A DNA stretch of 64,000 nt from Bdellovibrio sp. GT3 (lineage in GTDB: Bacteria > Bdellovibrionota > Bdellovibrionia > Bdellovibrionales > Bdellovibrionaceae), in assembly GCF_037996765.1 (NCBI RefSeq), contig NZ_JBBNAD010000005.1:94001-158000 (forward strand), given 5' to 3'. Of this stretch, positions 1,381 through 56,736 are shown in pieces. Below the pieces are notes generated by a model. That model made no database searches. It saw only the letters and a list, made by a program, of their open reading frames with translations, and was not told where the DNA came from. Position 1 is the stretch's first letter. Each line of letters starts with the position of its first letter. The position numbers and the translations under genes were made by a program.

Positions 1381-1409
1381 TTGACTCCTTTTTGATAAAC
1401 AACAATCAT
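1381..1409 (+). promoter_or_regulatory. Candidate sigma-70-type promoter for the 1437 gene
   Basis: TTGACT at 1381-1386 is followed by a 17-base spacer and AATCAT at 1404-1409. The -35 box matches 5 of 6 consensus bases and the -10 box 4 of 6. It would give a leader of about 20 bases holding the ribosome binding site AAGGAG. Confidence 0.4.
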
Positions 1410-1436
1410 TTTGTTGAACAATTATAAGGAGTCTCC

Positions 1437-9010: not shown

Positions 9011-11326
9011 ATGTGCATGTTGCGACCACGATTAAAGACCATTTTATTTTGTTTTACAATCCTTGTGACGCTTGCAATCATCGCGGGACTTGGGTTTGCC
9101 ACTTATTCCTATTTTTCACTCGAAAAAGAGATGACACAAAAGCTTGAATCCAAGCGATTCATAGTACCCACCGAATACTATGCAGGCCCCCGTGTTTTCA
9201 GCGCACGAAATTCCGGTTCTCCAGACGGCATTGAAAGCCTCTTTACCAAGCAGAATTTCCGTCGACGTGACTATGATCAGCGACTCTTGCAAGGAGACTA
9301 TTTCATCGCTGACCGTGAGCAGTGCAGCGCCCGACTGCAACTGCCGTTGGATGAGAACCAAATTGGCTGTTTTGCCTGGGTGAATAAAGATATCTCAACC
9401 GCAAAGGTCGATAGCTCCATGCAGATTTTGGTGTTCCAGAACGACAGCACCATTTCAAAAATCTATATTGGCGCGCCCTTTCAGGAAGTCGCATCCGTCT
9501 TTGGCGAAGCCCCTCTTTTGGCACAGTACATTGGTAACGAACCTTTAATGCAAAAAACCGTGACATTAGGAGAGGTTCCTCCCACGTGTTCCAACGCAAT
9601 TATGGCAATTGAGGACGCACAATTTCTTGAACACGGCGGCATCAGCTTTAAGGGCATCCTTCGCGCCTTGGTTCGAAATATCACCACGGGTCGCAAGGAA
9701 GGCGGCAGCACCATCACGCAACAATTGGTGAAGAACTATTTCCTGACAAGTGAACGCACTCTGAAAAGGAAGTACCAGGAATTTATCATGTCGATTCTTT
9801 TGGAATCGCGATTTAACAAAGATGAAATTCTGGAAACTTATCTGAACGTCATTTACATGGGCCAAAATGGTTCATTCCAGGTGCGCGGCTACGGCTCCGC
9901 TGCACGATATTACTTCAACAAAGAAGTCAGCGATCTGGATTTATCTGAATGTTCATTGCTGGCAGCCATTGTTAACAGCCCAGGACTTTACAATCCGTTT
10001 AAAAAACCTGCGAATGCAGAACGTCGCCGCCACTTGGTTTTGGATAAAATGAAAGGTCTTAATTTTATCAGCGATTCCCAAATGACCGAGGCCGACAACA
10101 AGCCACTACCGCGGGCTCCAGTGACATTGGCTACGGAAACAGCTCCGTACTATCTGGATGCAGTTCGCAAACAAATGGAAGCACTGAAAGTTCCTGTTGA
10201 AGGTCTGCGAATCTACACAGCCCTTGATTTGGAATCCCAACAGGCCGCTCAGGAATCACTAAGCAATCATCTGAATAATCTGGAAAAAACGAACAAACAC
10301 ATCAAAGGCCTTAAAGAAAAAGGCAATAACCTGGAAGGAATAGTTCTGGTTGGCGACAACCGCACTGGCCTGGTGACGGTGGTTGTTGGCGGTCGCAACT
10401 ATCGCATGACCCAGTTCAATCGCGCCATTGATGGCCACCGTCAGGTTGGCTCAACCATGAAGCCGTTTGTTTATTTGACGGCTTTGATGAACGAAACTTC
10501 CGAGGGCAAGCCCTACACCCCGATGACTTTGTTGAATGACGAAAAACAAAGCATTAAGTTCGAAGGTCAAAACTGGGCGCCTGAAAATTATGGCAAGAAA
10601 TATTACGGCATGGTTCCGATGTTTTATGCCCTGAAAAATTCCATGAATGCCGCAACAGCCAATCTGGGTATGAATGTCGGCATTGGAAACATCGTCGATG
10701 TCGCCCACAAATTCGGCGTTGAATCCGAACTCAAACCATTCCCCTCATTGACTCTTGGTGCGTTTGAAATGTATCCCCGCGAAGTTTTGCAAAGCTACAT
10801 GACGATTGCCAATCTGGGATTACGCAAAGACATTTCTTTTGTTCGCAAAGCCCTGAATGCAGAAGGTGCTGAGGTGTTCACGTTTAACCCCAATGACCGC
10901 CAGGTTGAGGATCCCGCGATCGTCGCCAGTCTGATCAGCATGATGAAGCAAGTCATCATTTCCGGTTCAGCGCGAGCGATTCCTCTGAATGGATTCACCA
11001 ATCCTGCAGCTGGAAAAACGGGAACCACCAACGACAACAAAGACGCCTGGTTCAGCGGTTTCACTCCGTATTTAACAACAATCGTGTGGGTGGGTTACGA
11101 CAACAATCTTCAGCACAAACTCACCGGCTCAAGTGGCGGCGTTCCGGTCTGGACAGATTTCATGAAACGAATTGGCAGCCGCTTTCCCGCGGATGACTTT
11201 ACTCTTCCAGAAGATGCGGTAAAAGTTGTTTTGGACGAGGAGACTTTGAAGGCACTAAACGCCCTGCAAGCACCTTTTGATCCAACTTCGGTTGAATTGG
11301 TATTTAAAAAAGGCACCGAACCCTAA
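9011..11326 (+). CDS. mrcB: Class A penicillin-binding protein (PBP1B-type transglycosylase/transpeptidase)
   Basis: A 771-residue bifunctional peptidoglycan synthase. A short cytoplasmic segment is followed by one membrane helix (about 9-32), a UB2H-like N-terminal module (about 45-170), the GT51 transglycosylase domain with catalytic Glu201 in EDAQFLEHGG and the GGSTITQQLVKN motif, and the transpeptidase with S481 (STMK), S544 (SMN) and K672 (KTGT). All catalytic residues are present. The UB2H region favours PBP1B over PBP1A. The frame is open far upstream because it runs antisense to the GroES-like gene; the first start that yields a sensible N-terminus is ATG 9011, with ATG 9017 as alternative. 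It is divergent from the GroES-like gene with 57 bases between. Confidence 0.92.
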   Translation: MCMLRPRLKTILFCFTILVTLAIIAGLGFATYSYFSLEKEMTQKLESKRFIVPTEYYAGPRVFSARNSGSPDGIESLFTKQNFRRRDYDQRLLQGDYFIADREQCSARLQLPLDENQIGCFAWVNKDISTAKVDSSMQILVFQNDSTISKIYIGAPFQEVASVFGEAPLLAQYIGNEPLMQKTVTLGEVPPTCSNAIMAIEDAQFLEHGGISFKGILRALVRNITTGRKEGGSTITQQLVKNYFLTSERTLKRKYQEFIMSILLESRFNKDEILETYLNVIYMGQNGSFQVRGYGSAARYYFNKEVSDLDLSECSLLAAIVNSPGLYNPFKKPANAERRRHLVLDKMKGLNFISDSQMTEADNKPLPRAPVTLATETAPYYLDAVRKQMEALKVPVEGLRIYTALDLESQQAAQESLSNHLNNLEKTNKHIKGLKEKGNNLEGIVLVGDNRTGLVTVVVGGRNYRMTQFNRAIDGHRQVGSTMKPFVYLTALMNETSEGKPYTPMTLLNDEKQSIKFEGQNWAPENYGKKYYGMVPMFYALKNSMNAATANLGMNVGIGNIVDVAHKFGVESELKPFPSLTLGAFEMYPREVLQSYMTIANLGLRKDISFVRKALNAEGAEVFTFNPNDRQVEDPAIVASLISMMKQVIISGSARAIPLNGFTNPAAGKTGTTNDNKDAWFSGFTPYLTTIVWVGYDNNLQHKLTGSSGGVPVWTDFMKRIGSRFPADDFTLPEDAVKVVLDEETLKALNALQAPFDPTSVELVFKKGTEP

Positions 11327-24791: not shown

Positions 24792-25781
24792 ATGGCAACA
24801 TTCAATAAAAAGATCCAAAGATTAGGCGTGTATACAAGTGGTGGCGATGCTCCTGGAATGAACGCAGGGCTTCGCGCAGTCGTTCGTGCAGCAATCGCAA
24901 ACAAACTGGAAGTTTCCGCAATCATGCAAGGCTATGTCGGCATGATGGAAAATCATATTGAGTCGATTGATCAACGTTTTGTTGCAAACATCATTCAACG
25001 TGGTGGCACTGTCATCAAAACAGGACGCTCCACTGAATTCACAAAACCTGAAGGCCGCGCCAAAGCCGCAGCCAACTTGAAAGCTCACGGCATCGATGCC
25101 TTGGTATGCATCGGCGGTGATGGCTCCTTCCGTGGTGCTCACGCCCTTTGGGAAGAACACCAAATTCCTGTCGTGGGAATTCCCGGGACTATTGATAACG
25201 ATGTGTTTGGCTCTGATAAAACGATCGGTTTTGATACAGCTGTAAACACTGCTTTGGAAGCGATCGACAGAATCCGTGACACAGCTGCTTCACATGATCG
25301 CCTGTTCATCGTGGAAGTCATGGGTCGCAACTCCGGCCACATCGCATCTTATGTGGGACTTGCCGGTGGTGCTGAAGAGATCTTCACGCCGGAAGCCACA
25401 ACGACAGTTGATAAAGCTGTGGATCGTATCAAAGAAGGCATCTCCAGAGGGAAAACCAGCTCAATTCTGGTCACGGCAGAAGGCCAAAAGCCAGGTCGCG
25501 CTTATGATCTTGCCGATGCCATCCGCAAGAAAACAGGCTGGGACGCTAAAGTTTGCATCCTGGGTCACCAACAACGTGGCGGTTCACCAACTGCTGCCGA
25601 CCGCATTCTTGCAAGCCGCATGGGAGCCGCAGCCGTGGATTCATTGCTGAAAGGTCATTGCGACATCATGATCGGCACTGAAGGTGAACGACTGGTCGAA
25701 GTACCTCTCGACATTGTAACGAAGACCGAGAAAAAAGCGCATCTTGACCTCATCAGTCTTGCAAGTGTTTTAGCCACTTAA
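24792..25781 (+). CDS. pfkA: 6-phosphofructokinase
   Basis: A 329-residue phosphofructokinase that phosphorylates fructose 6-phosphate in glycolysis. The motifs GGDAPGMNAGLRAV, GGDGSFRGA, GIPGTIDNDV and EVMGRNSGHIA are all present. The glycine after GGD (GGDGS) is that of ATP-dependent enzymes, as pyrophosphate-dependent ones carry Asp there. Length matches bacterial PfkA. No clear Shine-Dalgarno precedes ATG 24792. No terminator separates it from the branched-chain amino acid transport operon, although the long dyad at 25790-25852 lies between. Confidence 0.95.
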   Translation: MATFNKKIQRLGVYTSGGDAPGMNAGLRAVVRAAIANKLEVSAIMQGYVGMMENHIESIDQRFVANIIQRGGTVIKTGRSTEFTKPEGRAKAAANLKAHGIDALVCIGGDGSFRGAHALWEEHQIPVVGIPGTIDNDVFGSDKTIGFDTAVNTALEAIDRIRDTAASHDRLFIVEVMGRNSGHIASYVGLAGGAEEIFTPEATTTVDKAVDRIKEGISRGKTSSILVTAEGQKPGRAYDLADAIRKKTGWDAKVCILGHQQRGGSPTAADRILASRMGAAAVDSLLKGHCDIMIGTEGERLVEVPLDIVTKTEKKAHLDLISLASVLAT

Positions 25782-25789
25782 AAACTCTT

Positions 25790-25852
25790 GACCTCTTTTG
25801 TAGATGCTTGAATTCTAAACGCTATTCGCGTTTTAGCATTACAAAAGAGGTC
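25790..25852 (+). promoter_or_regulatory. Long stem-loop sequestering the ribosome binding site of the liv operon
   Basis: GACCTCTTTTGTA (25790-25802) is the perfect reverse complement of TACAAAAGAGGTC (25840-25852). With one bulged base the pairing continues for five more bases (ATGCT/AGCAT), and an inner hairpin AAACGC-TATTC-GCGTTT tops the structure. The 3' arm contains the ribosome binding site AAAGAGG of the substrate-binding protein gene, whose ATG lies three bases beyond the stem. No T run follows, so it is not a terminator. It could be a translational switch in the mRNA or a large DNA operator. Confidence 0.7.
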
Positions 25853-25855
25853 TTT

Positions 25856-26977
25856 ATGAAACGTCTGTTAGTATCCCTTTTGCTGGCTCTTCCTTTGCTG
25901 GCTGGTTGCACGAAAAAAGATAACGTTATCATGATCGGTGAATACGATTCATTGTCCGGTAGCGATGCCACGTTTGGCTTGAGCTCAAACAAAGGTGTTC
26001 GTCTGGCATTTGATGAAATCAACGCTGCTGGTGGTATCAAAGGTAAAAAAATCGAACTTAAAACCATGGATGACCAAGGTAAAAACGAAGAGGCCGCTGC
26101 GGCGACTACTCGCTTGATCACGCAAAATAAAGTGGTCGCAATTATCGGCGGCGTTGCTTCCGGTCGCTCCAAAGCGGCAGCACCGATTGCACAAGCCAAA
26201 GGTGTTCCGTTCGTCTCCCCGGCCTCCACAAATCCTGACGTAACAAAAGTCGGCGATTATGTATTCCGTGTTTGCTTCATCGATCCATTCCAAGGATCTG
26301 TGATGGCCAAGTTTGCGACTGAGAATCTGAAAATCAAAAAAGTTGCAATCCTTCGCGACGTTAAAAACGACTACTCCGTAGGACTGGCTGATGCCTTCCT
26401 GACAGATTTCAAAAATCGCGGTGGCGAAATCGTAGCGGACGTCTCTTACCAAGCGGGCGATATTGATTTCAAAGCTCAGCTGACGCAAATTCGCTCTAAA
26501 AACCCTGAAGCGATCTACGTTCCAGGTTACTACACTGAAGTGGGATTGATTGCGCAACAAGCTCGCCAACTGGGCATCAAAGCTCCGTTGATGGGTGGTG
26601 ACGGATGGGATTCCGAAAAATTGCACGAGATCGGAAAAGAAGCGATCAATGGCAACTACTACTCAAACCACTACACTGTTGAAAGCACAGATCCTGCAGT
26701 GACTGAATTCATCAAAAAATTCAAAGCGAAATACAACGAAACTCCGGATGCGTTGGCAGCTTTGGGTTACGATGCCGCTAAAATTCTGGCAGCCGCTATG
26801 GAGCGTTCTGTAGACTTGTCAGGTAAAGCGATTCGTGATGAACTGGCTAAAACAAAAGATTTCCCTGGCGTGACTGGTAAAATCAGTCTGAATGAAAACC
26901 GCGATGCTGTTAAGAGTGCTGTGGTGATTCAGGTTGATGGACCAAACCGCAAGTACATCTCGACAGTGACGCCTTAA
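25856..26977 (+). CDS. livJ: Branched-chain amino acid ABC transporter substrate-binding lipoprotein
   Basis: A 373-residue periplasmic binding protein of the Leu/Ile/Val type. The N-terminus MKRLLVSLLLALPLLAGCTKKD has a lipobox (LAGC), so it is membrane-tethered, unlike E. coli LivJ. Family motifs include VIMIGEYDSLSGSDATFG, RLAFDEINAAGGIKGKKIEL, VVAIIGGVASGRSKAAAPIAQ and YDAAKILAAAMERS. The start is ATG 25856 with AAAGAGG upstream; a TTG 16 codons earlier lies in the leader stem. It heads a five-gene operon with two permeases and two ATPases. The exact ligand (branched-chain or other amino acids) is inferred from the family. Confidence 0.93.
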   Translation: MKRLLVSLLLALPLLAGCTKKDNVIMIGEYDSLSGSDATFGLSSNKGVRLAFDEINAAGGIKGKKIELKTMDDQGKNEEAAAATTRLITQNKVVAIIGGVASGRSKAAAPIAQAKGVPFVSPASTNPDVTKVGDYVFRVCFIDPFQGSVMAKFATENLKIKKVAILRDVKNDYSVGLADAFLTDFKNRGGEIVADVSYQAGDIDFKAQLTQIRSKNPEAIYVPGYYTEVGLIAQQARQLGIKAPLMGGDGWDSEKLHEIGKEAINGNYYSNHYTVESTDPAVTEFIKKFKAKYNETPDALAALGYDAAKILAAAMERSVDLSGKAIRDELAKTKDFPGVTGKISLNENRDAVKSAVVIQVDGPNRKYISTVTP

Positions 26978-26999: not shown

Positions 27000-27902
27000 A
27001 TGCAGGATTTCGCACAGCACTTAATAAATGGTATCAGCCTTGGCTCCATCTACGCACTGATCGCTCTTGGCTACACCATGGTGTACGGAATCCTGAAAAT
27101 GATCAACTTCGCCCACTCTGATGTTTACATGGTGGGCGCCTTTGGTGCCTACTATGTCGCCCGGGCCCTGGGTATCGAAGCTCAGCCCGGCATCGGTTCT
27201 TTGGCAGTTCTTCTGATTTCTTCGATGGTCGTTTGCAGTGTCCTGGGTCTTTTGATTGAACGACTTGCTTACCGCCCCCTTCGCACAGCACCTAAATTAA
27301 ACATTCTGATCACCGCTATCGGTGTCAGCTTGCTGCTGGAATACGGTGGACAAGTTGTATTCGGAGCCGATCCCAAAGTCTTTCCTGAAGTGATGAAAGA
27401 TTTTGTGATCTTCTCGTTCGGCAATGTGGAACTGAAGTCCTTCGATTTGACAGTCCTTCTGGTCAGTGTCATCGCGATGATGGCCCTTCAATTCATGCTC
27501 TATAAAACCAAACTTGGCAAAGCCATGCGTGCGGTCAGCGCCAATCCTTCCGTCGCCAGCCTGATGGGCATTAACCCGGATAAAATCATCGCTTTCACAT
27601 TTATCGTGGGCTCGGCCCTGGCCGGAGTGGGCAGCGTCCTGGTCGGCATGAAATATCCGAAGATTGATCCTTTGATGGGAATGATGATCGGCATGAAGGC
27701 CTTCGTCGCCGCAGTTCTGGGTGGCATCGGCAACGTGCGTGGCGCCGTTCTTGGAGCCTTGATTATGGGGCTTTCCGAAGAAATGGTCGTCGCTTATCTT
27801 TCATCCACATACCGCGATGCTTTGGCCTTCGGTATTCTGATTGTCATTTTAATCTTTAAACCTGCTGGCCTGCTGGGCAAGTACACTGTGGAGAAAGTGT
27901 GA
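27000..27902 (+). CDS. livH: Branched-chain amino acid ABC transporter permease LivH
   Basis: A 300-residue inner-membrane permease with about eight hydrophobic helices. It opens DFAQHLINGISLGSIYALIALGYTMVYGILKMINFAHSDVYM, the hallmark LivH N-terminus. KLGKAMRAVSANPSVASLMGINPDKI is the cytoplasmic coupling (EAA-like) loop that contacts the ATPases, and LGGIGNVRGAVLGALIMG is conserved. It begins 22 bases after the binding protein and overlaps livM by one base. Confidence 0.95.
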   Translation: MQDFAQHLINGISLGSIYALIALGYTMVYGILKMINFAHSDVYMVGAFGAYYVARALGIEAQPGIGSLAVLLISSMVVCSVLGLLIERLAYRPLRTAPKLNILITAIGVSLLLEYGGQVVFGADPKVFPEVMKDFVIFSFGNVELKSFDLTVLLVSVIAMMALQFMLYKTKLGKAMRAVSANPSVASLMGINPDKIIAFTFIVGSALAGVGSVLVGMKYPKIDPLMGMMIGMKAFVAAVLGGIGNVRGAVLGALIMGLSEEMVVAYLSSTYRDALAFGILIVILIFKPAGLLGKYTVEKV

Positions 27903-28882
27903 TGATTCGTGCTTTAAAGAATCCTCTTTTATCCCTTGTTGCAACCCTGATTCTGGGGCTGGTCTTTCAGTTCGGATTTGATGAATACATCCAACTGATG
28001 GTTTTGTTCGTCACCGTTAACTGTCTGATGGCCATGAGTTTAAATCTGGTCAATGGCTACACAGGGCAATTTTCATTGGGACATGCTGGTTTTATGGCGA
28101 TCGGCGCCTACTTCACGGCCTACGCTTCCGTGAATTGGAACTTCCTGCCGGAGCAATTTCAAGGAATCACATTCTTTGTCTTCGCTATCGGCAGCGGTCT
28201 TGCCGCAGCCCTTGCTGGATTTCTGGTGGGACTTCCCTCTTTGCGCCTGAAGGGTGACTATCTGGCCATCGTCACTCTGGGGTTTGGTGAGATCATTCGC
28301 GTGGCGCTTTTGAATATGGACTTTTTGGGCGGTCCGCGTGGATTTGCCAACATTCCAGGATTCTCCAGCTTTTACATGTCCTATGCCTTCGCCGTTCTTT
28401 GGATCCTGATTTGCTTCTTTACCATTTGGCGTGTGATGAGATCCTCTTGGGGACGCGGCTTCCTGAGTGTTCGCGAAGACGAAATCGCAGCCGAGTCCAC
28501 AGGTATCAACACGACAGGAATGAAGGTTCGCGCTTTTGTTCTTTCCAGCTTTTTTGCGGGTGTGGCCGGCGCCTTGTTTGCTCACTTTACCAACTTCATC
28601 AATCCATCATCATTCACCTTCCTGCAAAGCGTGAATGCTGTGATCATGGTGGTTTTGGGCGGAATGGGATCCATGACAGGATCCATTATCGCAGCCATTT
28701 TTGTAACGGCACTGCCTGAAGCACTTCGTCCCCTGCAAGAAGTGACCGGTGTCGACCTGCGCATGGTTATTTACTCATTGTCTTTGGTACTTGTGATGAT
28801 TCTTCGCCCTAAAGGCATCATGGGCGAACTGGAAATCACCGATCTGTGGAGAAAATATGTCCGACGTTCTGCTGGAAGCTAA
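27902..28882 (+). CDS. livM: Branched-chain amino acid ABC transporter permease LivM
   Basis: A 326-residue permease, partner of LivH in the membrane. Conserved segments are NLVNGYTGQFSLGHAGFMAIGAYFTAY, LPSLRLKGDYLAIVTLGFGEIIR, the coupling loop SSWGRGFLSVREDEIAAESTGINTTGMKV and LGGMGSMTGSIIAAIFV. ATG 27902 overlaps the livH stop (TGATG); a GTG one codon earlier is possible. Its 3' end overlaps livG by 26 bases, indicating tight translational coupling. Confidence 0.95.
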   Translation: MIRALKNPLLSLVATLILGLVFQFGFDEYIQLMVLFVTVNCLMAMSLNLVNGYTGQFSLGHAGFMAIGAYFTAYASVNWNFLPEQFQGITFFVFAIGSGLAAALAGFLVGLPSLRLKGDYLAIVTLGFGEIIRVALLNMDFLGGPRGFANIPGFSSFYMSYAFAVLWILICFFTIWRVMRSSWGRGFLSVREDEIAAESTGINTTGMKVRAFVLSSFFAGVAGALFAHFTNFINPSSFTFLQSVNAVIMVVLGGMGSMTGSIIAAIFVTALPEALRPLQEVTGVDLRMVIYSLSLVLVMILRPKGIMGELEITDLWRKYVRRSAGS

Positions 28883-29633
28883 AGGTATCACAATGCAGTT
28901 CGGCGGATTAAAAGCCGTCGACAATCTGTCCTTCAAAATTGAAAAAGGTCAGTTGGCGGGTTTGATCGGACCAAACGGTGCGGGTAAAACAACGGCCTTC
29001 AATATGCTGACAGGCGTTTACCAGCCGACTCATGGCGAGGTTTTTCTGGACGGTCAATCCTTGGCGGGCTTAAGACCCTACCAGATCTCCCAGCGTGGCA
29101 TCGCCCGCACATTCCAAAATATTCGTCTTTTTAAAAATCTGACGGTATTGGAAAACGTCCTGATCGCCACACATCAGCATGTGAGCTATGGAATTATGGA
29201 TGCCTTGTTTCAAACCAAGAAGTTCATTGAGACTGAAAAGCAAATGACTGAAAAAGCCATGGACCTTCTTTCTCTTTTTTCCATGCAAAACAAGGCCGAT
29301 GAACTTGCGAGCAGCCTCCCTTACGGCCAACAGCGCAAGCTTGAGATCGTCCGCGCCCTGGCAACCGATCCCAAAATCATCTTACTGGATGAACCTGCAG
29401 CGGGAATGAATCATTCGGAAACTCACCAACTGATGGAAACCATCGCGCAGATCAGATCCAAATTTAACCTGACGGTTTTATTGATCGAACACGACATGAA
29501 ACTGGTCATGGGAATATGTGAAAATATTGTGGTGCTGGATCACGGAGTGAAAATTGAAGAGGGCAGTCCCAAGCACGTTCAAAACTCCAAAAAAGTTATC
29601 GAGGCCTACCTGGGTGTGGAGGAAACTCACTAA
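28857..29633 (+). CDS. livG: Branched-chain amino acid ABC transporter ATPase LivG
   Basis: A 258-residue ABC ATPase: Walker A GPNGAGKTT, Q-loop in GIARTFQNIRLF, signature LPYGQQRKLEIVRAL (a LivG-type variant of LSGGQ), Walker B ILLDEPAAGM and H-loop IEHDMKLVMGICENIVVLDHG. The C-terminal extension ending ...KKVIEAYLGV is typical of the LivG family. It energises import with LivF, and shares one base with the livF start codon. Confidence 0.95.
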   Translation: MSDVLLEAKGITMQFGGLKAVDNLSFKIEKGQLAGLIGPNGAGKTTAFNMLTGVYQPTHGEVFLDGQSLAGLRPYQISQRGIARTFQNIRLFKNLTVLENVLIATHQHVSYGIMDALFQTKKFIETEKQMTEKAMDLLSLFSMQNKADELASSLPYGQQRKLEIVRALATDPKIILLDEPAAGMNHSETHQLMETIAQIRSKFNLTVLLIEHDMKLVMGICENIVVLDHGVKIEEGSPKHVQNSKKVIEAYLGVEETH

Positions 29634-30346
29634 TGCAGACTCCAATTATTTCCGCTGAAAACCTGAACGTCTATTATGGATCCATCCAGGCCCTTAAAGG
29701 AATCACTTTCCACGTCAACAAAGGGGAAATCGTCAGTTTGATTGGTGCCAATGGCGCCGGTAAAACAACGACACTTCGTGCATTGTCTGGATTGGTTCCC
29801 TCCCAGGGCACAATCACAATGCATGGCAAAGATCTGATGACCGTGCCATCCCACGACCGGGTCAAGCTGGGCATGGCTCAGTCCCCTGAGGGGCGCGGTG
29901 TGTTTCCCCAAATGAGCGTGCTCGAGAATCTGGAAATGGGTGCCTACCACCGTAACGACAAGGCCGAAATCAAAAAAGATTTTGAAATGTGTCTGGAACT
30001 GTTCCCGCGAATCAAAGAACGCCTGTGGCAGATGGCCGGGACATTGTCAGGGGGCGAGCAACAAATGCTGGCAATCAGCCGCGCCCTAATGTGCAAACCT
30101 GAGATTCTATTGCTGGATGAGCCTTCTTTGGGACTTGCTCCCCTGATCGTAAACCAGATTTTTCAAATCGTGACCAAGCTGAATCAGGATGGCATGACAA
30201 TTCTGCTGGTGGAGCAAAATGCCAAGCTTGCCCTAAGAATTTCTCATCGTGCTTACGTTCTGGAAACCGGGCGCGTGGTGATGCAGGACACAGGTATCAA
30301 CCTGCTGAACAACGACGAAGTTCGCAAATCTTACCTCGGCGTTTAA
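29633..30346 (+). CDS. livF: Branched-chain amino acid ABC transporter ATPase LivF
   Basis: A 237-residue ABC ATPase with Walker A GANGAGKTT, the family stretch AQSPEGRGVFPQMSVLENLEMGAY, signature LSGGEQQMLAISRAL, Walker B ILLLDEPSLGLAP and H-switch region LLVEQNAKLAL. It ends EVRKSYLGV. The ATG overlaps the livG stop (TAATG). It is the last gene of the operon and is followed by a strong terminator. Confidence 0.95.
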   Translation: MQTPIISAENLNVYYGSIQALKGITFHVNKGEIVSLIGANGAGKTTTLRALSGLVPSQGTITMHGKDLMTVPSHDRVKLGMAQSPEGRGVFPQMSVLENLEMGAYHRNDKAEIKKDFEMCLELFPRIKERLWQMAGTLSGGEQQMLAISRALMCKPEILLLDEPSLGLAPLIVNQIFQIVTKLNQDGMTILLVEQNAKLALRISHRAYVLETGRVVMQDTGINLLNNDEVRKSYLGV

Positions 30347-31787: not shown

Positions 31788-33200
31788 TTAGGCCATCTTT
31801 TGTAGTGTGATTTCCATCTCGGTTCCACGGCCATCTTTGACCGGGCTCTTGATACTTACTTTACCATCGTGCGCTTCGACTACAGCTTTTACGAACGTCA
31901 GACCCAAACCCATTCCGTATTCAGAACGGCTCTTGTCACTGCGATAAAGCTTTTGCCAGATCAAGCCGTGCTCTTCAGCGGCGATTCCGGGACCGGAATC
32001 CACGACTTTAAGAATAACGCTTTCCGTCTGATTGATAGTCTCGATGATTACTTCACCACCCGGAGGTGTGTACTTATGGGCATTATCCAAAAGATTGGCG
32101 ATCACACGACTGATCAATCTTGGATCAATCATCGCCCAGTCATGGGAATCCAATTTTTGCGTGACCTTGATGTTTTTTTCCTCGAAGGCCATTTCATAAA
32201 GGTCCATGATTTCACGCACCAGATCACTGATAAACTTTTTCTCGATCTTCAGCTTTTTACTGCGATTCTCGGCCTCGGTAATATCAGTCAGGACCTGCAG
32301 GAAGTTCAGGATCTTATCTGAGTTCTCGAAGCAGCTTTGCAGGGCTTCGCGATAAGACTCCAAATCACCCTCACTGGTCAGTGCAATTTCCGCACGGCCA
32401 CGCAGTCTGGTTACCGGCGTGCGAATATCATGGGCCAAATGATCAAAGGCTTCCTTCAATCCATTTACCAGGTTCTCGATCTTATCCAGTGCCTTATTGA
32501 ATAACAGCTTAAGCTCTTCAAGCTCATCATCACTGCCACCAATCGGCACACGAGTGGAAAGAGATCCGCGCTCGATCTTTTTCATCGAGTTGATCAGTTC
32601 ACGAACGGGACTAAGAGTGGAATTCGATAAAAAGAGGCCGCCCAAAAATCCAATCATCGCAACCGGAACCAGAGTCCACCAGAAAAGTCTTTGCAGATTG
32701 CGCAGCTGGCGAGCCATTCCTTCCGTGCTTTTCGCCAACATAAGGCGCTCGCCATTTTTTAGATTTCTTCCCTGAACCAAAACCGCCTCGGCCCCCTGGC
32801 GTTCAGGGATGGAGAACTCGAATGCATTTTCACGATGATTTCGCAGTTCACGAGTCAATAGATTCTTATCAAATTCAGGTGCTGGATTAGGCCAGTGAGA
32901 GAAAACGACATCACCGTTTTCGTCGTAGATTTCAATCATCAACGAGGCATCACGGTCAAAAGTACGCAAAACCTCGAAATACTGTTTGAAGTCCTCAAGG
33001 CCATTGACCTCGATACGATTGGCAAACTCGTCCGTTTTAGAAACGAGAATCGCCCGCTCTTGATTTTGCAGTGAGTGCGTGATTTGAAAATAAAGAAAAC
33101 TGAAGATCAGCGTGGAGCTCAGAATCAGTACCAGCGAGTACGCAAGCGTCAGCTTGGTACTGATTCTAAAAAGCGTGGGCTTAAGACCCTTTAAGAACAT
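31788..33200 (-). CDS. Two-component sensor histidine kinase with HAMP domain
   Basis: A 470-residue classical membrane kinase. Two membrane helices (about 16-37 and 170-192) bracket a periplasmic sensor of about 130 residues, then HAMP (SNSTLSPVRELINSMKKIERG), HisKA with AFDHLAHDIRTPVTRLRGRAEIAL, and HATPase with NLLDNAHKYTPPGG, DSGPGIAAEE and GMGLGLTFVKAVVEAHDGKV. The H-box and boxes N, G1 and G2 are complete. Its start overlaps the regulator gene by 20 bases. The stimulus is unknown. Confidence 0.93.
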   Translation of the reverse strand: MFLKGLKPTLFRISTKLTLAYSLVLILSSTLIFSFLYFQITHSLQNQERAILVSKTDEFANRIEVNGLEDFKQYFEVLRTFDRDASLMIEIYDENGDVVFSHWPNPAPEFDKNLLTRELRNHRENAFEFSIPERQGAEAVLVQGRNLKNGERLMLAKSTEGMARQLRNLQRLFWWTLVPVAMIGFLGGLFLSNSTLSPVRELINSMKKIERGSLSTRVPIGGSDDELEELKLLFNKALDKIENLVNGLKEAFDHLAHDIRTPVTRLRGRAEIALTSEGDLESYREALQSCFENSDKILNFLQVLTDITEAENRSKKLKIEKKFISDLVREIMDLYEMAFEEKNIKVTQKLDSHDWAMIDPRLISRVIANLLDNAHKYTPPGGEVIIETINQTESVILKVVDSGPGIAAEEHGLIWQKLYRSDKSRSEYGMGLGLTFVKAVVEAHDGKVSIKSPVKDGRGTEMEITLQKMA

Positions 33201-47338: not shown

Positions 47339-50110
47339 CTAATTACTGTCCTGCTTATCCGCTGCCATTGCCGGAATTCTTTGAATGTACTTCTTATAAC
47401 CGTCACGCCACTCAGAGTTCTTTAACTGCTCCTGAGCCAGATTCTTCCAGAATCCACTTTTTTGACCTTTAAAATCATTCCAAACCTCAGCTGCCTTTTG
47501 AACATCACCGCGATTGAAATAAATTTGACCTAACTTGTATCGGATCGACGAAAGGGGACGCTTGTCCTCGTACTGCTCCAGCAAATTGCCGAAAGCAGAG
47601 ATGGCTTTGTCTTTTTGTCCGTTCTCCAATTGAATATTGCCGATCATCTCAAGTGCTTTTGCATGCACCACAGGTGAAACTTTTTTGGAATCCGTCATCA
47701 ACTTATCAATCATGCCCAAAGCCTCAAGGGCGTCATCTTTTTTGCCCTGCTTCAGCTGCAACTCCGCAAGTTTCAAGTAAGGATCTGCAACAAGCTCCGG
47801 CTGGCCTTTCCACGTTCTTAGCAATTCACCCAAATAGCGAATGGCTGAATCTGTGTCGCCACGTCTTTCCAACAGACGTACCGCCACGCCAACGCGCTCA
47901 ATTTGCTCAGTCTCAGTCAGCTTTTCCGGATTCTTGATATTCTTAAGGTACTCGTAGGCTTGATTGTATTTATGTTCCGCTTCAGAAACCGCCGCCAGAC
48001 GAAGATTCAATTCCTCAATAGAAGGAACCTGCTCCTTCACTTTGATTTCCTTCGCTTCCGGTGTGCCCGCCAAGGCATAGATGCGATTCAAAACTTCTTT
48101 ATAGTAGCGCGCAGATTCAGTTGGCGTTCCCGCCATCTCGAATGCACGTCCGACATTGTACTTGGTATCCAGACGGTTGGAATTCTTCAACCAGTTGTCA
48201 GAAAATTCACTGTGCGTTTTCAGCGCCCCAATGAAATCACCTTTTTCAACCTGGTCATCCAACTTGGCGTTGATGTTGCTGATAATTCGTCCTGTAAGCA
48301 ATGGTACATCCACTGTTCCCGGATGCTCCTGGTAGTACTTCGCCAGAAGGTTAATGGATTTATCAAATTCACCACGCTGGGAGTAACCATCAGCCACCAT
48401 CACCGTAGCGAACTGTTCCATTTTTGGCAGATCCACTTTTTTCGCAAGTTCCATGATTTCTTTCACGGCATTTGCGGTTTCCTTCGGCTTCATGCCCTTC
48501 ATGCGTGCACTTAGCAAGCGAAGGCGGGCAATCACAGCACTTGGAGTTTCACCATAACGGAAATATGTTTCCAGGTACGCTCCCATCACACGGGATTTAT
48601 CCGCACCCAGAATATCCAAAAGCTCACCCAGTCGAGTCATCGCATAAGGCGCGTGATCACTGGATGGAAACTTTTTAACGAATTCACGGTACATATCCAA
48701 ACTTTGAGGATACTGCTTCATGCCGAACATGGATTCAGCCTGATTGTAAAACGCACTTGGATAAGCGCCTTGCCCTTCTGGATATTTCTTCAATGCGTTT
48801 TTGTAATCTTCAACGGACTTTGCATAGTTTTTGGCGCGAACCCAGACATCACCGCGACGGTAGGCCGCTTCAACTTTCAAATCACGACTTGTGGAATTCT
48901 TTTCGATCTCATCAAACTGCGCAACAGCATCGTCCCATTTGCTGATTCGGGAGTATGCCAACCCCATGCCCATGCGAGCCAGGTCTTTGGAAACGGATTC
49001 TTTGCCGCCAAAATTTTTATTGGCGATATGTTCATTGAACAAACGCAAAGCCGCAAGATTGTCGCCACGATCCAAAGTCAGATAACCGATTTTAAGTGAC
49101 GTTCTTTCCGCCAAAGGGGATTTTGGGAATTTTTCGATGGCTTCCTTATATTTTTGAATCGCCTCATCGAAAAATTCGATTTTACCGCTGTTATTATACA
49201 AAGCCAGATTCACGTCGCCCGTCATGTAATCAACGATCTCGTTGTATTCTGAGTTTGGATATTTTTCGCGGAACCAGTTTCTTGTTTTCAAAAAGACGCC
49301 GTAACGTTCTTTTTCGAACAACGTCAAAAGCAAACGAGCCTGTTTGTTTTCGTCCGTCTGTTTAGGACTGATTTCATAGATTGTCGGTGTGACTTTCAGT
49401 TTTTCCCACTGAGCAACCGGAGTCTCCAGCATAGGAAATGTAATATAGTAGTTGTCTTTGGCGCGGATGACCGAATCTTCCTTAATGTCATAAGGTTTGA
49501 TCGAGAATCTTTCGTAGTTAGGATCCCCACCATCAAAGATACCAGCTTGAATTTGATCCGCTTGTGCCACCACGGAGCCTGCATTATTAATGGCAAGAAC
49601 ATCTGTGGTTGCCGGCTTGCGATCAGTTTTTGCTTTTGCTTCTGATTTTGCGATCTTAGAGGATTCCTCTTTAACCACTGGTTCCGATTTTTTAGGAGCG
49701 GATTTTTTGGCCGCTTTGACCATATTTGGATTCAAGTAGAAGTCCATGATCAATCGGGAAGGTTGGTCCGTCAGATAGTCAAAGGTCTCGATACTTTCAC
49801 CGGAAAGCACAAAAGAAATTACTGACTTTCCATCAGTGCCCTGAGCATCGACAGAAACTTTAGTCACCATATCGCTTTTGAATGTATTTAAGGATTTAAT
49901 AGTGGCGTCATCCAACGCTGGCACAGTCATACGGACGATAGTCTGGCCTTTGTCATCCAGACGTTTCACGTCATAGTCCCAATTCTGCTGTCCCAACAGT
50001 TCCAAGTGCACAGTATCGCCCTGGAAGTTGATGAAGCCATTGACCTTATTATTTGCTGCATTGGCCACTAGACCAAAGCAAAGGCATCCTGCCAAAATTA
50101 CGTTGCGCAA
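47339..50110 (-). CDS. AMIN-domain, TPR-repeat exported protein heading the flagellar operon
   Basis: An exported protein of about 923 residues. A signal peptide (MRNVILAGCLCFGLVANA) leads into an AMIN-like domain (KVNGFINFQGDTVHLELLGQQNWDYDVKRL ... PSRLIMDFYLNP), which in other proteins binds peptidoglycan, then a Lys/Ser linker and about 15 tetratricopeptide-type repeats (ALYNNSGKIEFFDEAIQKYKEAIEKFP, AAYRRGDVWVRAKNYAKSVEDYKNALKKYP). I choose the TTG at 50110: GAGGAG lies seven bases upstream, and the predicted sigma-54 start site near 50141 makes the ATG at 50143 unusable. It ends 14 bases before the sigma-54-activator-like gene. A role as periplasmic scaffold for flagellar assembly or motor function is inferred. 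Confidence 0.83.
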   Translation of the reverse strand: MRNVILAGCLCFGLVANAANNKVNGFINFQGDTVHLELLGQQNWDYDVKRLDDKGQTIVRMTVPALDDATIKSLNTFKSDMVTKVSVDAQGTDGKSVISFVLSGESIETFDYLTDQPSRLIMDFYLNPNMVKAAKKSAPKKSEPVVKEESSKIAKSEAKAKTDRKPATTDVLAINNAGSVVAQADQIQAGIFDGGDPNYERFSIKPYDIKEDSVIRAKDNYYITFPMLETPVAQWEKLKVTPTIYEISPKQTDENKQARLLLTLFEKERYGVFLKTRNWFREKYPNSEYNEIVDYMTGDVNLALYNNSGKIEFFDEAIQKYKEAIEKFPKSPLAERTSLKIGYLTLDRGDNLAALRLFNEHIANKNFGGKESVSKDLARMGMGLAYSRISKWDDAVAQFDEIEKNSTSRDLKVEAAYRRGDVWVRAKNYAKSVEDYKNALKKYPEGQGAYPSAFYNQAESMFGMKQYPQSLDMYREFVKKFPSSDHAPYAMTRLGELLDILGADKSRVMGAYLETYFRYGETPSAVIARLRLLSARMKGMKPKETANAVKEIMELAKKVDLPKMEQFATVMVADGYSQRGEFDKSINLLAKYYQEHPGTVDVPLLTGRIISNINAKLDDQVEKGDFIGALKTHSEFSDNWLKNSNRLDTKYNVGRAFEMAGTPTESARYYKEVLNRIYALAGTPEAKEIKVKEQVPSIEELNLRLAAVSEAEHKYNQAYEYLKNIKNPEKLTETEQIERVGVAVRLLERRGDTDSAIRYLGELLRTWKGQPELVADPYLKLAELQLKQGKKDDALEALGMIDKLMTDSKKVSPVVHAKALEMIGNIQLENGQKDKAISAFGNLLEQYEDKRPLSSIRYKLGQIYFNRGDVQKAAEVWNDFKGQKSGFWKNLAQEQLKNSEWRDGYKKYIQRIPAMAADKQDSN

Positions 50111-53153: not shown

Positions 53154-53217
53154 AGCCCAGGTCTCTCAATTGCATTTTAATCTCCTGTCGTACACTTAAA
53201 GTCGTCAGGAGGAATAT

Positions 53218-54060
53218 ATGCCAGCTGGGACCCCCAAGAACCGCGTGCGCTGTCATAGTGTCTTAAAACTAGACACGGGCCTCCGTTTGGCTATGGCTTT
53301 CATTATTCCCCTGGTTTCGTCTTTATCGGCCCACGGTAAGATCGTCACTTGCGACGATGTCTTCGCATCCACCATCCGCGATGAACGCGCCCCCTACTAT
53401 GATACCGCGATGGAAAGAGCTCTGACAAAATCAGTTCGAATCTACAGCGACTACGACGGCCTTTCCTCCAAGGACATTCTTTATATCGTCGAGAAAATCT
53501 ATCGCGAAGAAGAAGGTCAACGTTACAAGCTCTCGGACTATTGGAAACTGAACTCCAAGGAACGATCCACTCAGGAACTGGCACGCATTGTGGGCGAACG
53601 TATCACCCATATTGGTATCGAGAACTATTTCCGTGAAAGCGGAATTCTGCTGGATCATTCCACATTAATTTCCAAAATCAGAACTTTCAACAGAGCTGCT
53701 TTTACAAACCAAACCTCCGCTGTTCTGGGAACAATTGGCTTGGTCAATGGTCGCTTGCCAATCTTTCTGCCTGAAGCTTATTTAAAAATCGCCACGGATG
53801 ATATGACTGTTCTATTATTGCGCGGCCTTGACTCCAAAGAGGGTCGCGAAATTCAAAAGAAATATCAATCACGCCAGGAACTGTTCCGTGCCTATGAGCA
53901 AATCAATCGTCACTACACTCGCATCGCCCTTGCTGTGGTGTTTGCAGTCCTGGTCGATAAAGGTGACGATTTCCTAAAGGAAAAACACGAAGACATCCTG
54001 ACTGACTTGTGGACTCGCGTGGTTCAGGAAATCACTGGCAAGAAAGGCAGCGTTGAATGA
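53218..54060 (+). CDS. Putative exported protein of unknown function, coupled to a serine protease gene
   Basis: A 280-residue protein. Residues 20-42 (LRLAMAFIIPLVSSLSAHG) form a signal peptide with an unusually long basic n-region. The body is helical and charged (DVFASTIRDERAPYYDTAMERALTKSVRIYSDYDGLSSKDILYIVEKIYREEEGQRYKLSDYWKLNSKERSTQELARIVGERI), with a hydrophobic strip near residue 240. AGGAGGAATAT precedes the start. The stop overlaps the trypsin-like protein start by four bases. It could be a partner, inhibitor or cofactor of that protease; no family is recognised. Confidence 0.68.
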   Translation: MPAGTPKNRVRCHSVLKLDTGLRLAMAFIIPLVSSLSAHGKIVTCDDVFASTIRDERAPYYDTAMERALTKSVRIYSDYDGLSSKDILYIVEKIYREEEGQRYKLSDYWKLNSKERSTQELARIVGERITHIGIENYFRESGILLDHSTLISKIRTFNRAAFTNQTSAVLGTIGLVNGRLPIFLPEAYLKIATDDMTVLLLRGLDSKEGREIQKKYQSRQELFRAYEQINRHYTRIALAVVFAVLVDKGDDFLKEKHEDILTDLWTRVVQEITGKKGSVE

Positions 54061-56705: not shown

Positions 56706-56710
56706 AAAAA

Positions 56711-56736
56711 GCCGAACCTTCTGGGTTCGGCTTTTT
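56711..56736. terminator. Bidirectional rho-independent terminator after trmFO
   Basis: GCCGAACC/GGTTCGGC with a five-base loop lies between A and T runs and serves both trmFO and the converging 56759 gene. Confidence 0.9.

Follow-up and report, generated by a model that had tools for sequence, protein, structure and literature searches.

A conserved stem over the livK Shine-Dalgarno sequence as a proposed translational insulator between pfkA and the liv operon in Bdellovibrio

In Bdellovibrio sp. GT3, the Shine-Dalgarno (SD) sequence of livK, the first gene of the liv operon, is buried in a stem which is kept as base pairing across the genus Bdellovibrio, and a conserved promoter-like pair of boxes overlaps the same element. 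We propose, with a probability of about 0.68, that the stem is a translational insulator silencing read-through RNA from the upstream gene pfkA. The liv promoter would start transcription within the loop of the stem, and normal liv mRNA would lack the 5' arm, leaving its SD open. Polymerase coming from pfkA, meeting no terminator in a 6-nt gap, would copy the -35 box and the spacer into RNA, and this strand would then fold onto the SD and block livK translation. The -35 region would have a dual use, serving as promoter in the DNA and as anti-SD strand in the read-through RNA. The results presented below show the stem, its covariation, the conserved promoter-like boxes at a fixed spacing and the computed accessibility of the SD; from these we infer where liv transcription starts, that RNA reads through from pfkA into liv, and that such RNA is silenced.

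The stem and its setting

The window, i.e. the whole stretch of DNA analysed, is 64,000 nucleotides long, and it contains the following features of the pfkA-liv region.

24792..25781, forward strand: pfkA (6-phosphofructokinase); Pfam PF00365, E 4e-106, and open reading frame
25788..25793, forward strand: -35 box TTGACC, overlapping the start of the 5' arm by four bases; genus conservation
25790..25802, forward strand: 5' arm (anti-SD strand), GACCTCTTTTGTA; sequence, fold and covariation
25811..25816, forward strand: predicted -10 box AATTCT, spacer of exactly 17; genus conservation
25815..25836, forward strand: inner 6-bp hairpin of the read-through fold; RNA fold, not conserved in relatives
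25823..25825, forward strand: predicted liv transcription start, in the loop; inferred from the -10 position
25840..25852, forward strand: 3' arm, TACAAAAGAGGTC, holding the SD AAAGAGG (25844-25850); sequence, fold and covariation
25856..26977, forward strand: livK, branched-chain amino acid binding protein, first liv gene; Pfam PF13458, E 6e-70
27000..30346, forward strand: livH, livM, livG and livF; Pfam PF02653, PF00005 and PF12399

The pfkA stop codon (25779-25781) is separated from the -35 box by 6 nt and the end of pfkA from the livK ATG by 74 bp, and each of the 24 Bdellovibrio genomes compared has pfkA immediately before livK. The Pfam matches support livK, livH, livM, livG and livF as the liv operon named in a first-pass annotation of this DNA. 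The arms are, as described there, exact 13-bp reverse complements, with a separation of 37 nt, and the livK ATG at 25856 is indeed three bases beyond the 3' arm; AAAGAGG, which had been placed between the arms, is located inside the 3' arm. The further pairing, inner hairpin and high stability also noted at that stage were recovered in the RNA fold of 25770-25880, which comprises about 18 pairs plus the 6-bp hairpin and reaches -28.9 kcal/mol, in comparison to -15.3 +/- 2.7 kcal/mol for shuffled sequences (z -4.96; none of 200 shuffles as good). A second copy of TTGACCTC, the motif at the -35 box, is present 44 bp before that box, at 25744-25751, within the 3' end of pfkA; this copy codes for LDL and could serve as an alternative anti-SD strand.

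In a sample of about 287 kb from the same genome, with 223 predicted gene starts, the longest perfect inverted repeat with one arm between -100 and -36 and the other between -30 and -1 is that of livK (13 bp, the next being 8 bp), and the livK SD ranks in the top three for opening cost. The window does contain further perfect inverted repeats of 13 bp, at 49127-49177, 33121-33167 and 56706-56736, so that length alone is not unique to the liv stem, its position over the SD and its conservation being what sets it apart. The first two of these repeats have loops of 25 and 21 nt. No further copy of the liv stem element was found in the genome, where the stretch is single-copy. At another gene start, near 53218 (window 53180-53225), the SD AGGAGG is contained within a local hairpin, TCTCCTG...CAGGAGG, and its opening cost of 13.4 kcal/mol is as high as that of livK.

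Conservation of the pairing across the genus

Conservation was assessed in 24 genomes of the genus Bdellovibrio, all of which have pfkA-livK. The pfkA-livK protein tree is a near star of many lineages, and clades can thus be treated as roughly independent. Arm cells are paired in 83.8% of cases, in comparison to 72.3 +/- 1.7% in shuffles and no more than 49% with a slid partner; double-changed cells number 28 against 11.3 in shuffles, two-sided changes affect 7 of the 13 stem pairs, and covariation scores 0.350, a value reached by no shuffle, against 0.157. Single-base bulges were removed from the arms of L007, L010 and L011 for this pair count, which slightly favours structure; a control count in a wrong register of 3 columns gave no signal. 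An arm-swap test, which requires no bulge editing and is independent of the pair count, was carried out on 17 clades: cognate arms fold at a mean of -17.4 kcal/mol and swapped arms at -13.8 kcal/mol (z -4.9), with none of 50,000 permutations as good (p < 2e-5). The comparison of arms in relatives for compensatory changes, which the first-pass annotation had suggested as a check, bears out its view of a ribosome binding site buried in a stem and shows this stem to be conserved as base pairing. Examples are the arms CCTCATTTCT/AGAAATGAGG in L016, GACCTCGaCTGT/ACAGCGAGGTC with one bulged A in L011, and CCTCATCTAT/ATAGGTGGGG, which include G-U pairs, in L025. The excess of G-U pairs over A-C mismatches, a strand-specific test for RNA, is suggestive only (19 versus 9, p 0.09). 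In an order-wide comparison the stem proved to be essentially a feature of this genus, L029 being the one possible exception.

A chance match between two separately constrained motifs, the -35 box TTGACCTC and the SD GAGGT, could by itself account for the outer six pairs (GACCTC/GAGGTC), and 6-bp matches of this sort occur at other sites at about the rate of a backwards control. Such a coincidence is nevertheless hardly credible, as the covariation extends to pairs 7-13, which lie within the spacer and upstream of the SD and are outside both constraints; with the -35 and SD cores excluded, the inner arms alone still give p 0.002 in the swap test.

The near-perfect dyad spans the promoter, which lies inside it, and a dimeric protein bound to the dyad would cover the promoter; a DNA operator was also what the first-pass annotation expected if transcription started within the stem. 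The half-sites, however, vary by species and yet change together in both arms (TCTTTTGTA, TCGCTGTA, TCATTTCTA). Conserved half-sites of the kind an operator calls for were not found, the inner arms varying with compensating changes; G-U pairs and single-base bulges are tolerated, and the arm spacing differs among species. Covariation of the arms between species, with bulges and G-U pairs, points to an RNA fold, formed in read-through RNA, and makes an operator very improbable.

A conserved promoter-like pair within the stem

TTGACC is present in 23 of the 24 genomes of the genus and was found also in other genera of the family. AATTCT follows at a spacing of 17 in 18 of the 24 genomes, and AATCCT, AATATA or ATTAAT in most others. 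Outside the genus but within the family, the TTGAC at livK is paired at a spacing of 17 with AATCAT, GACAGT, TACGCT, TACTCT or TAGTCT (nAnnnT), and in L032 the pair fits at a spacing of 18 only. The TTGACC-N17-AATTCT pair bears the marks of a housekeeping-type promoter, and from its conserved spacing the liv transcript is predicted to start near 25824, in the loop. This position falls within 25803-25840, an interval in which a start had been considered at the outset to speak against the buried-site reading.

A generic sigma-70 scan returned no promoter at the site, because AATTCT is a poor match to TATAAT and weak by the E. coli standard. TTGAC-N17-nAnnnT occurs 5 times upstream of genes and 0 times in gene bodies over about 287 kb, numbers too small to establish enrichment. 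The only published Bdellovibrio start-site map that we found covers attack-phase promoters only and describes a sigma-28 motif unlike the liv promoter (PMC3627812). Spacer length and stem strength are not significantly correlated (Spearman 0.39, p 0.12).

Accessibility of the SD in the two RNAs

In the genome of strain GT3, the computed cost of opening the SD in the read-through RNA is 12.9 kcal/mol, and the site is essentially never open. In the RNA from the predicted start, which is without the 5' arm and hence has a free SD, the computed cost is 1.3 kcal/mol, the SD is unpaired 64% of the time, and the RNA folds no better than shuffled sequences. The expectation that translation would be low unless something opens the fold therefore stands for transcripts carrying both arms and fails for the RNA from the predicted start. 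Given the 6-nt gap after pfkA and the lack of a terminator, read-through is to be expected unless Rho acts.

Were the main liv mRNA to start upstream instead, as part of a pfkA-liv operon, the stem would be a regulatory leader opened by a protein, a ligand, a helicase or temperature. The conservation of the stem as RNA pairing and the constant adjacency of pfkA and livK (24/24 genomes) agree with such a leader, as does L009, in which a short intergenic deletion has removed the -35 TTGACC while an 8-bp SD stem, GACTTCAT/ATGAGGTC, is kept directly after the pfkA stop codon. We consider it unlikely. A conserved -35/-10 pair lies inside the stem, and in some relatives a terminator separates pfkA from the 5' arm, so that RNA arriving from upstream could not be the principal liv transcript. 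Moreover, neither the loop nor the inner hairpin shows the conservation expected of an aptamer, the conserved part there being the -10 region, and an Rfam scan of the whole 64-kb window gave 0 matches, in line with the early observation that no known riboswitch class could be recognised. The modelled stability of -28.9 kcal/mol at 37 C makes an RNA thermometer unlikely, and the results lend no support to either a riboswitch or a thermometer acting on the regular liv mRNA.

Terminators and stem strength in relatives

Four clades (L014; L019/L020/L022; L023; L008) have a terminator of the hairpin-plus-T type in the interval from pfkA to the promoter. Stems are weak in all four and strong in 11 of the 13 other clades (Fisher p 0.006, with a strong/weak cut-off chosen after seeing the data), and the SD opening cost differs between the two groups (Mann-Whitney p 0.045), while SD accessibility in the RNA from the predicted own start does not. 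The sister pair L007 and L008 shows the same pattern, the former having a strong stem and no terminator and the latter a terminator and a weak stem. Tree-aware pairs, 2 on well-supported branches and 4 on all branches, go in the expected direction wherever they differ, and are too few for significance. Two points are left unexplained by the translational insulator, namely the weak stem without a terminator in L024 and the stem without a -35 box in L009.

The weakness or loss of the stem in the presence of a separate terminator would also be expected if it were an element of the pfkA mRNA 3' end, either a terminator or a stabilising hairpin, overlapping the SD by chance. In no species, however, is the stem followed by a long U-run (TTTATG, CAAC, CCCC and CCAC being found instead), and a terminator scan at the stem was negative, no GC-rich stem followed by a U-run, as in intrinsic terminators, being detected. 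Furthermore, the 3' arm is always centred on the SD, and the placement over an SD is repeated at a second gene pair. A pfkA 3'-end element is accordingly improbable; like the leader and the operator, it conflicts with at least one result.

Comparison with known systems

In phage T4 gene e, long early transcripts hide the ribosome binding site and reduce lysozyme synthesis 100-fold, and late promoters located within the 5' strand of the stem yield a well-translated mRNA (PMC3014915). The layout is shared with liv, where RNA coming from upstream would likewise fold over the SD; a stable stem with the SD in its 3' strand and pairing kept in relatives were both found at liv. By analogy, the liv stem may work like the gene e hairpin, the conserved -35/-10 pair predicting a transcript free of the 5' strand and the 6-nt gap without a terminator making read-through likely. 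In contrast to gene e, liv encodes a cellular nutrient transporter, and its predicted promoter looks housekeeping-like rather than of the T4 late type. Hairpins that hide the ribosome binding site on read-through transcripts only, with an internal promoter escaping the effect, are likewise described for I-TevI, I-TevII, I-TevIII and segB of T4 and mobE of Aeh1 (PMC2988022). Those are phage mobile-element genes under timing control, whereas liv presents an apparent insulation between two metabolic operons. In IS10/Tn10 fold-back inhibition and in the IS200 leader, external transcripts hide the ribosome binding site of the transposase and transcripts from its own promoter do not; there, unlike at liv, what is guarded is a transposon, against promoters that happen to lie outside it. 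An SD buried in a stem is also found in riboswitches and RNA thermometers, but their 5' arm belongs to the normal mRNA, and that of liv is predicted to lie outside it.

If the insulator reading is right, a device amply described in phage T4 serves a bacterium as a barrier between two ordinary operons of its chromosome, and a single stretch of DNA is both a promoter element and, as RNA, a translational lock. This would represent a testable alternative to a terminator for insulating operons. It would also recommend that an internal promoter be looked for before SD-hiding stems are labelled riboswitches or thermometers.

A second locus and the wider search

A scan of the genome sample for the liv-type layout identified a second locus, at which TTGACTCCTT begins at 1381, after a uvrD-like gene ending at 1368.

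1381..1386, forward strand: -35 box TTGACT, 12 nt past the uvrD-like stop (1366-1368)
1383..1390, forward strand: 5' arm GACTCCTT; genome-sample scan
1404-1409, forward strand: -10 box AATCAT, spacing 17; same -35/-10 layout
1426..1433, forward strand: 3' arm AAGGAGTC, the SD of the gene with ATG 1437; genome-sample scan

From reading the translations, we take the gene at 1437 to encode an outer-membrane-type protein and its neighbour to be uvrD-like. The locus is unrelated to liv, and the promoter-like pair recurs there as TTGACT-N17-AATNAT. The arms TTGACTCCTTTT... AAAAGGAGTC are retained in most relatives where the homologue directly follows uvrD, and opening the SD of the homologues costs mostly 9-14 kcal/mol in the read-through RNA versus 0.4-5 kcal/mol in the own-start RNA. 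The lock is weaker in L152 and L155, and L156 is without the box; in L153, where the homologue is located elsewhere, behind a terminator, the lock is weak. The L156 homologue, which has no TTGACTCC box, carries another strong hairpin, GATTCCTCATC/GATGAGGAATC, immediately before its SD.

The two loci may be cases of a wider class, in which the packed operons of Bdellovibrio would be insulated at translation, the downstream -35 region being selected as the anti-SD strand of read-through RNA and the lock being evolutionarily interchangeable with an intrinsic terminator; we put this forward tentatively and regard it as rather doubtful. Genus-wide pattern scans for -35/SD complementarity gave no clear excess over a backwards control outside the liv and uvrD loci, which indicates a small class at best. 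A weaker third instance was observed in L081 at 10507-10561 (C5:210507-210556 of the GT3 genome), where GACTCC/GGAGTC pair over 6 bp and TTGACT-N17-AAAAGT lies behind a terminator after a ubiE-like gene.
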